Positions 35,244 to 41,495 of a stretch of DNA of 41,635 bases are shown in pieces. This DNA is from Acidobacteriota bacterium (lineage in GTDB: Bacteria; Acidobacteriota; Holophagae; Thermotomaculales; Thermotomaculaceae). The stretch lies in assembly GCA_013152385.1 (NCBI GenBank), contig JAADGL010000014.1:1-41635 (forward strand), in the 5' to 3' direction. Made by a program: the position numbers and the translations under genes. Within the stretch, counting starts at the first letter, position 1. Every line of letters begins with the position of its first letter. Below the pieces are notes generated by a model that saw only the letters and a list, made by a program, of their open reading frames with translations, searched no databases and was not told where the DNA came from.

Positions 35244-38200
35244 TTATTCGCCCGCGCCGATGGCACTCATCCAGCTCCGGACATCGTCACCGGATACCGA
35301 AACCGCAGCAAGCCCCACGTCGGAGCTGAACCGGATGTAGTCTCCCGATTCCATGTCAGACAGGGAAAAGAGGTTGCCCACTACGGCGGCAGAACGGCTC
35401 ATGGGCGGGATTTTTACCTCATTTACCGCTTTCGCCACACCGTCCGCCCCCACCAGTTCAAGTGTCAGGTGCGCACTGCCCTTGTTCGGGTTGGCAAATG
35501 CCAGTCCTGTCCAGCTGCCGCCGGCGGTTTCCGTCAACGGGAAGATTCCGGTGGTCAGCATTCTGCCGTTCAGCGGGAATCCGCAGATTCCGTTGTGATA
35601 AGTGCCGAACAACTCCAACCCGATGAGTCCGGCACCGTCTGCCTGTATCGTGCCCCAGGTTGCGGTGCCGTTACTGTTCGGAAAGAGGTCGTTCAGTATC
35701 CCTTTGACCCTTGACCCGGCAGCCACTTCAAAAGGATAAGTCCCCACCACATTGCCGGCATTGTCGTACAGTGTGGCAGTGGCATTCACCGGGGTATCAG
35801 ACGGGTTCAGGAATGCAAACCCGGTCCAGAAAATGTCCGTCTCCGTGGGGATGTGAGGGATGTACAGTGTGGTTGAGCTGTGGCTGGTCAGTGCGATGGC
35901 GGCGCCATCGGAGCCTTTCCGCAGGAATGCCTCTATCCCGGTCAGTGATTTGGTGCCCCCAAAGGGATTATCGGAGCGGCCCTGGAACATTCCCCAGCAG
36001 AACGCGCTGTTTACTGTTTCCGGAAGGTAGGGGGTCAGATCCATGTCAAAATGAAGGGCCGGATCCAGTGCGGTCAGTTGGTTGTGAACCGTCATATCCA
36101 CTGCCACTTTCTTACAATCGGACAGGAAAGCCAGTGAATCCCACTGCTCCACTTCTTCCGCCACATGGGGCGCATAAAGGAGCGAAGCTGTTTCAAGGGG
36201 CTGGTAACTGGTAAAGCGGAATGCGTCCCCGTGAACGTCCGCAACCACCAGCAGGTAGTGGTCGGCTGTCAGTGTAATGTCCCTGTAGTCCTGTTTCGCA
36301 AAACCGGATAAATCCACCGCCTGTTTCCCGTGCCCCGGCAGTGTAAATGAACTGGAACCGGTATCTGTGCCGTTTTCGTCTTTTGCCGTCAGTGTTCCGG
36401 ACAGCGGTTCCGGGAATGGGTTCACCATCCAGATTGTCATTGTTGTATCTGTTTTGCCCCGTACATTATTCAGCAGTGCCGGCAGGCCCACCGGCAGCAT
36501 CAACGGCGCCGCATCGGTTATGGTTATAGTCAGGGGTGATGATGTGGCAGACAGGCCCTGGGCTGTGGAAACCGTAACTGTGGCACCATAAATACCGGCA
36601 ACCCGGTAGTGGAAGGCGACACTGCCGACGGTAGTGGTCTGATCCACTGTGCCGTCCCCGTCAAAGTCCCATTTGTAGGAGACGATAGCTTCTCCGTCCG
36701 GGGTATTGGCTTCACAACTGAATGTCACCGGTACCGGCAGGTTGCCGGAGACCCGATCGGAGATAAAAGACGTAATGACCGGCGGCATATCCGCCGCAAA
36801 ACTGGCGTGGATGGAATGGTCTGCCGTAACGGTGTAGAAGGTGTAGGTGGCAGCCGGGCTTACCAGCCCGCCGTCCACCTGGAGATAGCCCACATGAAAG
36901 CCGCTGTCCGGCATGATCGTGAACGATTGATCTGCTCCGTGTGCCACCTGGATAATGCCGGAAGGTGAAATCACACCGTTGGGCCCCGCGGTGGCTGTAA
37001 TGCTGTGATGGGCAATGTTCCCCACAAAGTCATTGCCCCCTGAATCCGCTGTGAGGTTGGCAAGGGGAAGCATGTCCGGGGTAAAGGTGTAGTTGGCGAG
37101 GGAGGGTGTCACCACTGTGCTGGTGCCGTAAGGAACAACGTAGCTGTATGTTCCCGCACTGCCGGTTACCACTGTTCCCCCGTCATGGGAAAAGGAGATT
37201 GTTACACCCGGAATCGGAGTTGAACCGTCAGTGACGGTTCCGGATATTGTTACCCCGTTCAGGATGGCGGTGAAGTCCTGCCCTGTCCGGTTGGACGCGA
37301 TGTCTGTGATGGTACGGGAAGGCGGAGACCAGTTGGAGTAGCCTGCCGCAGACGGGGTGATGGTGGTGGTGGTACCGTAGGGAACGGTGGCGCTGTAAAC
37401 ACCGGCAGTGTTGGTGTATATCACTGACCCGTCATGGGAAAAGGTTATTGCCGCCCCGGAAATGGGATGGGTGCCGTCGGTGACGGTACCGGAGATGATG
37501 TATTTATTGACCGTTCCCACAAAGTCCTGATTCGGCTGGTCGGAAATGATGTTGTTCAATGCCCGAAACGGAGGAGACCAGTTGGAATAACCTGCATGGG
37601 ACGCCGAAATCGTCGTTGTGGTGCCGTAGGGAACAATGTAACTGTACTGCCCGACAGCATCGGTCACCACCGTTCCCCCGTCATGAGAGAACGTCAGCGT
37701 GACGTCCGGAATCGGAGCTGAACCGTCGGTGACGGTTCCGGATACCGTGTAGCTGGGGCCGGATGTTCGAAATTCCACATCATTCCATCCCTTATTCTGA
37801 ATGGAATACCAGGGGCTGACAATCTGGCCAAAACCGCATACCGAATCATACAGGAGCCGTACCCGCCAGTGATAGGGAGTATTAAGCTGAAGGCCGGTAA
37901 CCGTTTCAGAAATCATAGTGGTGCCATCCCCTGTGTCAATCCAATCGCTGCTCTCTCCGGTAACAGAGAGAGAAGATACCGGCCCGAGTCCGAAAGGCAC
38001 CCACAGAGAACAGAACTGCCACTGAAGTCTGATCTTTGTCCGGCCCATTGGACTATGCGCACGAAGCTTAACTGTAATGGCATTCCCGGAATCAGACGTC
38101 AAATACAGACAAATAGGCGTGATTCCGTCGGATCGGAACTGACCCGGTGTCATAGAAAAGCCGGGGCCATCGTTTCCGAGGTATACATAAACTTTCCCCT

Positions 38201-41200
38201 CATTCGTCTGGCCATCCTTATACAGAGGTGCTCCGACAATAATATCGGAATAGCCGTCTCCGTTCACATCACCTGCTGAAGACACGGAAGAGCCAAATTT
38301 TGCATACTGCTGATTAGACGTCGCTGTCCAGGCAACCGTGCTATTCAGTCCCGAAGCCGAACCGAGGTAGACATACGCACGGCCTTCATCCGACAGGGTA
38401 TTGTCGAAAAGATATGCCCCGACAATGATATCGGAATAGCCGTCTCCGTTCACATCCCCGGCGCAAGATACCGAATAACCGAAATAAGCAAATGCCTGAT
38501 TGCCTTCTGCTGTCCAGGCAGCGGTGCTGTTCAGCCCCGGAATCGAACCGAGATACACATACACACGTCCGGCACTTGTTTGGCTGTTATTATAAAAGAC
38601 TGCTCCGACGATGACATCGGAATAGCCGTCACCATTCACGTCCCCCGCAGAAGAAACGGACCAGCCGAATTGTGCCTCTGCCTGATCAGATTCCGCAGTC
38701 CAGGCAGCCTTGCTATTCAGCCCCGAAGACGAACCGAGGTATAAATACGCACGGCCTTCTTTCGTCTGGCCATTGCTATAATCAGGTGCGCCAACAATAA
38801 TGTCGGAATAGCCATCTCCGTTCACATCACCCGCTGAAGATACGGAATAGCCAAATTCTGCATATTCCTGATTGGATTCCGCCGTCCAGGCAGCAGTGCT
38901 ATTCAGCCCCGAAGACGAACCGAGGTATAAATACGCACGGCCTTCTTCCGTCTGGCCATTGCTATAATCAGGTGCACCAACAATAATATCGGAATAGCCA
39001 TCCCCGTTTACATCACCCGCAGAAGAGACGGAATAGCCGAATTCTGCATATTCCTGATTGGATTCCGCCGTCCAGGCGGCGGTACTGTTCAGCCCCGAAG
39101 CCGAACCAAGATATACAAAGGCACACCCCTCTTCCGTCTGGCCATTACTGTAATAGGAAGCTCCGACAATGACATCGCCATAGCCGTCCCCGTTTACATC
39201 ACCCGCTGAAGATACGGACCAGCCAAAACGTGATCGCTCATGATTGGATTCAACAACCCAGGCCGGGGTACTATTCAACCCCGAAGCCGAACCGAGATAT
39301 ACATACGCACGGCCCTCATCCGGCTGGCCATTGTTGTAATAGGGAGCTCCAATAATAACATCGGCATAGCCATCCCCGTTTACATCACCCGCTGAAGATA
39401 CGGACCAACCGAATTCTGCATCTTCCTGATTGGATTCCGCCGTCCAGGCGGCGGTACTGTTCAGCCCCAAAGCCGAACCCGGATATACAGATGCACGGCC
39501 TTCATCTGTCTGGCCATTGTCGTAACCGTCTGCCCCGACAATGATGTCGGCATACCCATCCCCGTTTACATCACCTGAGGAAGATACGGACCAGCCCAAA
39601 TGAGCATCTGCCTGATCCGATTCATCGGTCCAGGCTGCGGTGCTGTTCAGTCCCGAAGCCGAACCGAGATACACATACGCACAGCCTTCATTTGTTTCGC
39701 CGTTACTGTAACTGGGTGCTCCAACAATAACATCGGCGTATCCGTCCCCATTCACATCTCCCGCAAAAGATACGGAAGAACCAAATTGTGTATTTGCCTG
39801 ATTGGATTCAGAAGTCCAGGCTGCAGTACTGTTCAGCCCGGAAGGGGAACCGAGGTAGACATACGCACAACCTTCATATGTCTGGCCATTGCTGTAATCA
39901 GGTGCTCCGATAATGACATCAGCATATCCATCCCCGTTCACATCTCCCGCAAAAGATACGGAAGAACCAAATTGTGCCTCTGCCTGATTGGATTCTGCGG
40001 TCCATGCTGCGGTACTGTTCAGCCCCGAAGCCGAACCGAGGTAAACATACGCACAACCTTCATTTGTTTCACCGTTACTGTAACCGGGTGCCCCGACAAT
40101 AACATCAGCATATCCATCTCCGTTCACATCTCCCGCAGAAGATACGGAAGAACCGAATTGCAGGCCTGCCTGATTGGATTCAACAGTCCAGTCTGCAGTG
40201 CTGTTCAGCCCCGAAGCCGAACCGAGGTAAACATACGCACAACCTTCATTCGTCTGGCCATTGCTGTAATCAGGTGCCCCGACAATGACATCGGAATACC
40301 CGTCCCCATTTACATCACCGGCACAAGATACGGAAGAACCGAATTCTGCATCTGCACGATCGCCTTCAACAGTCCAGGCTGCCGTACTATTGAGCCCCGA
40401 AGCCGAACCGAGGTAGACATACGCACAACCTGCGTTTATGTGGCTATTGTCATAATATTGGGCCCCGACAATGACATCGGAATAGCCATCCCCGTTCACA
40501 TCACCCGCTGAAGAAACGGAGCTGCCCAACTCTGCATATGCCTGATCTGATTCTATTGTCCAAACAGGGCTGGTTTTAAGCCCTGCGGCCGAACCGAGGT
40601 AGACATACGCACAGCCTTCATAAGGTTGGCCATTGTCATAACCGATTGCTCCGACAATAACATCGGCATACCCATCTCCATTCACGTCCCCGGCAGAAGA
40701 AACAGACCACCCGAAATATGCATTTGCCTGATTCGATTCTGCGGCCCAAACCGGAGTGGAAAACAGGGGGTCCACCGTAATGGGGAATGCCGCATCTTTC
40801 GTCTCTATCAAAATGGATAAGTGTTTACCCTGAAGCTTGAAATGAGAATCCAGTATCTTCCCTTCCGAGTCTTTCACCAGGAGCTTGCCGTATTCAAGAA
40901 CTCTGATACCGCCTTTGGTGAACAGTTCAATATTCTTTTTATTTTTCAGTGAAGCGGTTAAGGAGCCGGTAAAGGCCATTCGGATTTCAACTGTGCTCTG
41001 TTCTTCCGGATAGTTAATGGTAAAGCCCTGTTCAAGGCCGTCTTCCCGGTTTTCAAACCATTGTGTAATTTTATCATCCGGATAGGCTACTCTGCTTTTA
41101 TTTGCCTGCGGTGAAATGTTATTGATTCTCTCTACCTTTCCCATCGGGCCGTATCCGGTAAAACGCAGTTGAAAAGTCCATTCCGGAGATAAAATCCCAT

Positions 41201-41495
41201 CCGGATTATCTGCGTGTAACTCGTTTATTCTTTTATGGACAATAATACCTTTTTCAGTAAACCAGGTTCTAAAACCCTGTTTCCGGTTAAAGGCCTGGAG
41301 GGCTGTTCCAACACCGGGAAGTCTGCTTTTGGCTTTGGATACCGTATATTCACTTTCCAGTATCTTTTTTCGCACCGTACTCCACCAGTCGGCAGATACT
41401 CCCTGAGGCAACTCTGTTTTTTTCACATTGTTCGTTTGCGCCATCAGAGAGACACTAATCAGAAACAAAAGTAATAGTCGAACAGTCTTATTCAT
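35244..41495 (-). CDS. Giant secreted FG-GAP beta-propeller protein with PKD domain
   Basis: About 2083 residues from the ATG at 41495, which begins a signal peptide (MNKTVRLLLLFLISVSLMA). After an N-terminal beta domain (to about 255, ending PITVDPLF) come 14 tandem FG-GAP repeats of exactly 62 residues, each with FG-SVS-AGDVNGDGY and a Ca2+-type DxNxDG loop; 14 blades suit two seven-bladed propellers of integrin-alpha type. Then follow a fibronectin-III-like segment, three carboxypeptidase-regulatory-like repeats (SGTVTDG...FSHDG), an InlB-like bacterial repeat (ATAGPNGVISPSG), a PKD domain (YKWDFDGDGTVDQTTTV), and three related C-terminal beta domains. No known cell-wall or type IX sorting signal was recognised. 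Such proteins act in adhesion or matrix binding; the partner is unknown. Confidence 0.92.
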   Translation of the reverse strand: MNKTVRLLLLFLISVSLMAQTNNVKKTELPQGVSADWWSTVRKKILESEYTVSKAKSRLPGVGTALQAFNRKQGFRTWFTEKGIIVHKRINELHADNPDGILSPEWTFQLRFTGYGPMGKVERINNISPQANKSRVAYPDDKITQWFENREDGLEQGFTINYPEEQSTVEIRMAFTGSLTASLKNKKNIELFTKGGIRVLEYGKLLVKDSEGKILDSHFKLQGKHLSILIETKDAAFPITVDPLFSTPVWAAESNQANAYFGWSVSSAGDVNGDGYADVIVGAIGYDNGQPYEGCAYVYLGSAAGLKTSPVWTIESDQAYAELGSSVSSAGDVNGDGYSDVIVGAQYYDNSHINAGCAYVYLGSASGLNSTAAWTVEGDRADAEFGSSVSCAGDVNGDGYSDVIVGAPDYSNGQTNEGCAYVYLGSASGLNSTADWTVESNQAGLQFGSSVSSAGDVNGDGYADVIVGAPGYSNGETNEGCAYVYLGSASGLNSTAAWTAESNQAEAQFGSSVSFAGDVNGDGYADVIIGAPDYSNGQTYEGCAYVYLGSPSGLNSTAAWTSESNQANTQFGSSVSFAGDVNGDGYADVIVGAPSYSNGETNEGCAYVYLGSASGLNSTAAWTDESDQADAHLGWSVSSSGDVNGDGYADIIVGADGYDNGQTDEGRASVYPGSALGLNSTAAWTAESNQEDAEFGWSVSSAGDVNGDGYADVIIGAPYYNNGQPDEGRAYVYLGSASGLNSTPAWVVESNHERSRFGWSVSSAGDVNGDGYGDVIVGASYYSNGQTEEGCAFVYLGSASGLNSTAAWTAESNQEYAEFGYSVSSAGDVNGDGYSDIIVGAPDYSNGQTEEGRAYLYLGSSSGLNSTAAWTAESNQEYAEFGYSVSSAGDVNGDGYSDIIVGAPDYSNGQTKEGRAYLYLGSSSGLNSKAAWTAESDQAEAQFGWSVSSAGDVNGDGYSDVIVGAVFYNNSQTSAGRVYVYLGSIPGLNSTAAWTAEGNQAFAYFGYSVSCAGDVNGDGYSDIIVGAYLFDNTLSDEGRAYVYLGSASGLNSTVAWTATSNQQYAKFGSSVSSAGDVNGDGYSDIIVGAPLYKDGQTNEGKVYVYLGNDGPGFSMTPGQFRSDGITPICLYLTSDSGNAITVKLRAHSPMGRTKIRLQWQFCSLWVPFGLGPVSSLSVTGESSDWIDTGDGTTMISETVTGLQLNTPYHWRVRLLYDSVCGFGQIVSPWYSIQNKGWNDVEFRTSGPSYTVSGTVTDGSAPIPDVTLTFSHDGGTVVTDAVGQYSYIVPYGTTTTISASHAGYSNWSPPFRALNNIISDQPNQDFVGTVNKYIISGTVTDGTHPISGAAITFSHDGSVIYTNTAGVYSATVPYGTTTTITPSAAGYSNWSPPSRTITDIASNRTGQDFTAILNGVTISGTVTDGSTPIPGVTISFSHDGGTVVTGSAGTYSYVVPYGTSTVVTPSLANYTFTPDMLPLANLTADSGGNDFVGNIAHHSITATAGPNGVISPSGIIQVAHGADQSFTIMPDSGFHVGYLQVDGGLVSPAATYTFYTVTADHSIHASFAADMPPVITSFISDRVSGNLPVPVTFSCEANTPDGEAIVSYKWDFDGDGTVDQTTTVGSVAFHYRVAGIYGATVTVSTAQGLSATSSPLTITITDAAPLMLPVGLPALLNNVRGKTDTTMTIWMVNPFPEPLSGTLTAKDENGTDTGSSSFTLPGHGKQAVDLSGFAKQDYRDITLTADHYLLVVADVHGDAFRFTSYQPLETASLLYAPHVAEEVEQWDSLAFLSDCKKVAVDMTVHNQLTALDPALHFDMDLTPYLPETVNSAFCWGMFQGRSDNPFGGTKSLTGIEAFLRKGSDGAAIALTSHSSTTLYIPHIPTETDIFWTGFAFLNPSDTPVNATATLYDNAGNVVGTYPFEVAAGSRVKGILNDLFPNSNGTATWGTIQADGAGLIGLELFGTYHNGICGFPLNGRMLTTGIFPLTETAGGSWTGLAFANPNKGSAHLTLELVGADGVAKAVNEVKIPPMSRSAAVVGNLFSLSDMESGDYIRFSSDVGLAAVSVSGDDVRSWMSAIGAGE
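37010..37755 (-). repeat. Three carboxypeptidase-regulatory-like coding repeats
   Basis: Three copies of about 80 codons, each starting SGTVTDG and containing TFSHDG or SFSHDG and VPYGT, lie in tandem after the fibronectin-like segment. DNA similarity is high around the SHDG and VPYGT stretches. Boundaries are approximate. Confidence 0.75.
38157..40760 (-). repeat. 14 x 186-bp tandem FG-GAP coding repeats
   Basis: The codons for VNGDGY recur at an exact 186-base spacing fourteen times (anchor ends at 38270, 38456, 38642 and so on up to 40688) with no insertion or deletion between copies. Copies 10 and 11 (about 38750-39120) are the most similar, with only scattered mostly synonymous differences, suggesting recent duplication or gene conversion. 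Array edges are approximate. Confidence 0.93.

Follow-up and report, generated by a model that had tools for sequence, protein, structure and literature searches.

The subject of this analysis is a tandem repeat array within one large predicted protein of an Acidobacteriota bacterium (GTDB lineage Holophagae; Thermotomaculales; Thermotomaculaceae). The DNA analyzed, called the window below, is a stretch of 41,635 nucleotides (NCBI GenBank assembly GCA_013152385.1, contig JAADGL010000014.1, positions 1 to 41,635 of the forward strand). A minus-strand gene in the window encodes a protein whose central part consists of 14 FG-GAP units. In our judgment it is quite probable that these units form two calcium-binding propellers, joined without a linker and set between conserved domains of a large exported protein that likely acts as an extracellular scaffold, and that recombination between blades together with ring closure keeps such arrays to whole rings.

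The repeat array and its predicted fold

The motif GDVNGDG occurs 14 times in the protein, and all 13 gaps between neighboring copies are exactly 62 residues (186 bp), which confirms the number and period given in a first-pass annotation made from the sequence alone. The limits proposed there, 38157–40760, had to be shifted to 38148–40751; the array itself stood. The motif is a form of the calcium-loop motif D-x-[DN]-x-D-G and is present in 14 of 14 units. Pfam FG-GAP (PF01839) matched 14 stretches (E = 8e-134), and Tandem Repeats Finder reported 13.7 copies of period 186 at 38200–40739 with 78% matches; a 372-bp period outscored the 186-bp period. Comparison of every unit with every other gave identities of 35 to 60 of 62 amino acids and 111 to 176 of 186 nucleotides. 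The upper values belong to copies 10 and 11 (in protein order), whose near-identity had been pointed out in the first-pass annotation; the near-identical tract of this pair spans about 203 nt. Divergence is greatest in the last unit, which strays from the repeat consensus at its end.

The fold was predicted with AlphaFold for two constructs. Model 1, computed from a 38-row alignment, contained the N-terminal domain and all 14 units; its mean predicted local distance difference test score (pLDDT) was 87.9. Most repeat blocks scored above 90, and the value fell to 69 at model residues 641–650, where unit 7 ends and borders on unit 8. Model 2 contained the N-terminal domain and units 1–7 (mean pLDDT 89.5; predicted template modeling score, pTM, 0.71). 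In VIA-align comparisons, in which integrins filled the match lists, model residues 643–1080 aligned with whole integrin alpha propellers (best Z 44.4, root mean square deviation 2.5, 388 residues aligned), as did residues 223–643 of model 2 with integrin alpha propellers (best Z 41.8, deviation 2.6, 375 aligned). The two ranges abut at model residue 643 (P0001 residue about 684) with no linker between them. The best reading of these models is that the 14 units make up two closed, integrin-type, seven-bladed propellers, as the first-pass annotation had supposed from the number 14; no open solenoid was predicted. Three features of the models weaken this reading: the closing strand of propeller 1 was poorly supported (pLDDT below 50 near model residues 210–221), integrin residues 1–13 were left unaligned at that strand in most VIA-align rows, and the pTM of model 1 was 0.65. 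The positions of the array, the predicted propellers and the other parts of the protein are given in Table 1.

Table 1. Features of the FG-GAP repeat gene in the window
Feature	Positions	Strand	Remarks
Whole coding sequence	35244–41495	−	2083 aa from ATG; alternative TTG start 8 codons upstream possible
Hydrophobic N-terminus, signal-peptide-like	41439–41495	−	Judged by eye
N-terminal domain, conserved, about 210 aa	40770–41396	−	Common to relatives in many phyla; weakly DUF7948-like
14 FG-GAP units, 62 aa / 186 bp each	38148–40751	−	D-x-N-x-D-G calcium-loop motif in each unit
Predicted propeller 1 (units 1–7)	39468–40730	−	Model residues 223–643 align with integrin alpha propellers
Predicted propeller 2 (units 8–14)	38157–39470	−	Model residues 643–1080 align with whole integrin alpha propellers
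Near-identical pair, units 10 and 11	38706–39077	−	176/186 nt (60/62 aa)
Post-array conserved domain, about 120 aa	37785–38147	−	Also in relatives; matches extend to query residue ~1240
Three carboxypeptidase-regulatory-like domains (CarbopepD_reg, PF13715)	37050–37763	−	Pfam
PKD domain	36519–36743	−	Pfam
C-terminal region	35247–36482	−	Common to many other large proteins of the genome and its family

Repeat number among relatives

With the whole protein as query, 79 loci were found in many phyla, nearly all with 14 units. Because the query itself had 14 repeats, this count was biased, and searches were therefore made with the N-terminal domain (N-domain) alone, which is blind to repeat number. 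Matches were found in 49 of 297 genomes of the window's phylum, in 13 of 296 and 8 of 251 genomes of the phyla around two other relatives, and in 29 of the 30 seed genomes. For the window's phylum, 80 fetched regions covered 84 of the 98 match rows, the excluded rows being the window itself and 13 weaker ones. From the other two phyla, 15 of 17 and 9 of 13 match rows entered the evenly drawn set, and 2 more of the 13 joined the set of paralogs. Arrays cut by a contig end, a fetch end or N runs were excluded as incomplete (4 of 63 evenly drawn, 2 of 27 paralogs, 8 of 67 seed loci, and some arrays lacking the N-domain).

The 59 complete arrays of the evenly drawn set consisted of 13 with 7 units, 34 with 14, 4 with 21, 1 with 11, 4 with 13, and one each scored as 3, 4 and 5. 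Multiples of seven thus accounted for 51 of the 59, a result that does not bear out, as it was stated, the suggestion of the first-pass annotation that copy number may vary in steps that could break propeller closure; the counts of 11 to 13 are possibly assembly losses. Among paralogs in the seed genomes there were 5 arrays of 7, 19 of 14 and 1 of 12 (24 of 25 multiples of seven). The seed loci, a biased set, gave 1 array of 7, 52 of 14, 3 of 21, 1 of 28, 1 of 8 and 1 of 12 (57 of 59). Taking all complete arrays of at least 7 units together, 145 of 153 were multiples of seven, and none of the tallied complete arrays had 9, 10 or 15–20 units.

Several arrays do not fit. Seven had 11 to 13 units and are either real or products of assembly: the evenly drawn set contributed five of these (11 or 13 units), and the paralogs and the seeds each contributed an array of 12. 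The second array at L040 has 8 units. In addition, three evenly drawn arrays were scored 3, 4 and 5 by the repeat model; Pfam found 1 and 5 FG-GAP stretches in those scored 3 and 4, and seven FG-GAP_2 stretches in the one scored 5 (L270).

FG-GAP arrays without the N-domain served as controls; about 40 open reading frames (ORFs) were hand-picked for this purpose from the top matches of a PF01839 search of 118 genomes. The complete control arrays without large gaps (n = 48) comprised 34 of 7 units, 5 of 14, 3 of 21, 3 of 6, and one each of 3, 4 and 5; multiples of seven made up 42 of the 48. Three loci (L301, L307 and L315) encode large proteins in which linkers separate three or four runs, each of seven FG-GAP-like units. 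Because arrays lacking the N-domain also come in sevens, the rule looks general to FG-GAP propellers, and the case in the window looks like two rings fused without a linker.

The nearest congener (G002) is the only genome of the window's own genus with a related N-domain, and its copy reaches a contig end after one repeat. Further N-domain copies in the window's genome (L199, at the end of G000:C14, and L219, at the start of G000:C24) and in the congener (L279, on G002:C53) end at contig ends, and in one of these three the frame is broken; such arrays seem to be places where assemblies break. Comparison of the array DNA with plasmids gave no match. The N-domain was also present in 30 ORFs of L141–L220 in which no FG-GAP unit was detected, some of them truncated; it is thus a module that is combined with other partners too.

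Homogenization, odd counts and alternative explanations

Positional signal was defined as same-position minus off-position identity between the units of two arrays, and was called absent below 0.03 and present at 0.05 or more. These comparisons were restricted to 14-unit arrays, so they show homogenization and not a lock on number. Among 276 pairs of arrays with N-domain identity of at least 0.45, 203 had no positional signal and 56 had one. Many of the 56 pairs fell within the Dyadobacter clade, in whose arrays blades still correspond by position (same-position identity 0.946 vs. off-position 0.545 in one example). The clearest loss was seen in three 14-unit paralogs of one genome of candidate division FCPU426 (L032, L035 and L081), which had N-domain identities of 0.63–0.77, same-minus-off differences of −0.005 to +0.010 and inside-array identities of 0.78–0.81. 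Units were more alike inside the array than to any other array in 14 of 102 cases. The window's array was one of these (0.75 inside vs. 0.716 for the best other array), and its same-position identity was no higher than its off-position identity, in agreement with the exchange or conversion between copies that the first-pass annotation had read from copies 10 and 11. In homogenized arrays, then, units no longer correspond position by position, even when paralogs of the same genome are compared, yet these arrays hold 14 units.

In the main explanation, which we hold to be quite probable, recombination between blades, by gene conversion or unequal exchange, would keep the blades alike and erase their positional history. 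A ring closes with seven blades, so that under purifying selection on closure whole-ring arrays alone would persist and the repeat number would move in sevens. A more tentative extension, plausible to us though short of probable, is a concerted evolution of blades that is quantized by the ring. Changes of a single blade would arise, appearing as the 11 to 13 units found in the youngest arrays, those whose units are most alike, and would then be purged; older arrays would consist of whole rings only, and the family would gain or lose whole propellers.

The distribution of odd counts in number-blind data speaks for the main explanation. The most homogenized class was defined by inside-array identity of at least 0.65, and the number-blind sample was the evenly drawn arrays plus the paralogs, with the gappy L270 excluded. 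All six clear odd arrays of this sample (11, 12, and four of 13 units) fell in the most homogenized class, 6 of 15 arrays there vs. 0 of 67 below the threshold (p = 1.4e-5); counted by genome, the figure for the class was 4 of 13 (p = 4.5e-4). Of all arrays of 11, 12 or 13 units (L146, L212, L235, L257, L263, L264 and L070), only L070 lay outside the class. This 12-unit array of the biased seed set, with an inside identity of 0.58, speaks against the main explanation. All of the odd counts are deficits, which favors assembly collapse or a bias toward deletion.

Indeed, we lean slightly toward the view that the counts of 11, 12 and 13 are collapses of short-read assemblies and say nothing about evolution. 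Besides being deficits in every case, the odd arrays hold exact internal repeats that are in part among the longest found (49 to 132 nt, compared with 24 to 71 nt, and one of 115 nt, in 14-unit arrays of the same class), and some arrays are broken by N runs or contig ends. Set against this, one genome has three paralogs of 13 units each, and the exact repeats of L235 (12 units) and L212 (13 units) are no longer than those of many 14-unit arrays. The odd counts thus reflect either the loss or gain of single blades in recombining arrays, later purged, or the loss of near-identical copies in short-read assembly.

A possible but rather doubtful alternative is that gene conversion alone homogenizes the arrays. 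Since conversion cannot alter copy number, the constant 14 would then follow from the mechanism and not from selection on closure. The pattern of similarity within arrays agrees with it in part. Averaged over 114 arrays of 14, neighboring units resembled each other slightly more than distant units did. Near-identical tracts were mostly short and did not form seven-unit blocks. Arrays of 13 and 14 units held 42 near-identical DNA tracts, of which 15 joined units one apart and 5 joined units seven apart, with 0, 1 and 2 at distances of five, six and eight; the excess at seven is small, was noticed post hoc and provides a lead only. Some recent tracts connect blades that hold equivalent places in the two rings; units 1–8 or 2–9 are linked by four of the strongest lag-7 tracts. 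What argues against conversion as the sole process is that numbers do change, since counts of 7, 14, 21 and 28 are all found and turn into one another on the tree described below, and that the most homogenized arrays include odd numbers.

As a separate observation, the tracts in L032, L221, L263 and L273 join blades seven apart, as if equivalent blades of two rings exchanged preferentially. No lag-7 peak was found in the average of the 114 arrays of 14 or in the window, and no clear one in arrays of 21 or 28 units; recent doubling of a whole seven-blade ring was therefore rejected as the origin of the 14 units.

It is unlikely that the multiples of seven were simply inherited, by spread of an ancestral 14-unit gene whose number hardly ever changed and with no filter for closure. 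Such inheritance fits the finding that 14 is the count of most arrays and the positional correspondence retained in Dyadobacter-like arrays. However, a quick tree search with 133 N-domains required at least 20 changes of count state, with many between 7, 14, 21 and 28; with well-supported branches alone, there were at least 9 changes for 14, 6 for 7 and 2 for 21, although some of these could be mimicked by swaps of the N-domain in front of other arrays. Moreover, positional correspondence is gone in the homogenized arrays, and FG-GAP arrays without the N-domain, with different spacing, also come in sevens. Finally, a single open solenoid or one 14-bladed ring, for which the absence of a linker between units 7 and 8 could be cited, is very improbable and was dropped, because the models contradict it by aligning as two seven-bladed propellers and because relatives with 7 units alone exist.

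Protein context and relation to known propellers

In the proposed arrangement, the two propellers would be held between the conserved N-terminal and post-array domains, followed by the lineage-specific CarbopepD_reg, PKD and C-terminal parts. The N-domain scored 14.0 bits against DUF7948 (PF25778), for which the cut-off is 27, and by score is not a member; 5 of 46 N-domain members matched DUF7948 weakly (best E = 0.0015). A Pfam scan of the protein at E up to 1 found FG-GAP, CarbopepD_reg and PKD and no integrin leg family. The C-terminal region has only a weak match to DUF5719 and is possibly a lineage-specific part for surface sorting or anchoring. Partner domains of this kind are typical of secreted proteins. 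Together with the signal-peptide-like N-terminus and the calcium-loop motif in each blade, they make it likely, judging from sequence, that the protein is an exported, calcium-stabilized scaffold for binding or adhesion.

The neighboring genes, which encode a citrate-type transporter, a DUF1573 protein and TPR proteins, gave no further functional hint. The three CarbopepD_reg domains that follow the array resemble a small tandem repeat family themselves. A 303-aa open frame lies opposite the array (39600–40511, plus strand); the simplest reading is that it is a by-product of repeat codon usage.

The protein shares with the beta-propeller of integrin alpha subunits the FG-GAP and calcium-loop motifs and, as predicted here, the fold; unlike an integrin alpha subunit, it has two tandem propellers, a calcium motif in all 14 blades and no leg domains that we could find. 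Proteins of this type are already known. Bacterial proteins with 7 and 14 FG-GAP repeats have been described as one and two tandem integrin-type propellers (Chouhan et al. 2011, PMC3192720), with the same seven-repeat units and one calcium motif per blade. What differs here is that the family is set by flanking domains across many phyla, that counts of 7, 14, 21 and 28 were tallied, and that positional correspondence is lost between homogenized arrays. A survey of highly repetitive beta-propellers reports new amplification from single blades and blade numbers that form a continuum, with a bias toward the family median (Pereira and Lupas 2022, PMC9218822). The FG-GAP arrays resemble those propellers in the ongoing amplification and homogenization of blades and in that close homologs amplify their blades independently, and differ from the continuum in that intermediates are nearly absent. 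In WD40 proteins, 7 and 14 repeats are reported as frequent (PMC5587647, PMC9218822), and prokaryotic WD40 proteins with 14 repeats have likewise been read as two seven-bladed domains (PMC5587647). The WD40 arrays of Podospora het-d and het-e, whose reactive alleles have 10–12 repeats, are also blade arrays that vary by recombination, and the Podospora alleles differ between strains (PMC12222747).

The point of interest is thus the regularity of sevens under homogenization. In the literature searched, at the level of titles and abstract openings, we found neither a statement of the rule of sevens for FG-GAP arrays nor an earlier description of the near-absence of intermediates together with lost positional ancestry. 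With these arrays, the constraint of a closed ring on repeat number becomes a countable rule with checkable exceptions. Homogenized arrays act as natural replicates: drift of copy number is possible in them but seemingly rare. Should the odd arrays be real, they would represent intermediates captured before selection has acted, and the strength of selection for ring closure would be measurable from genomes alone.

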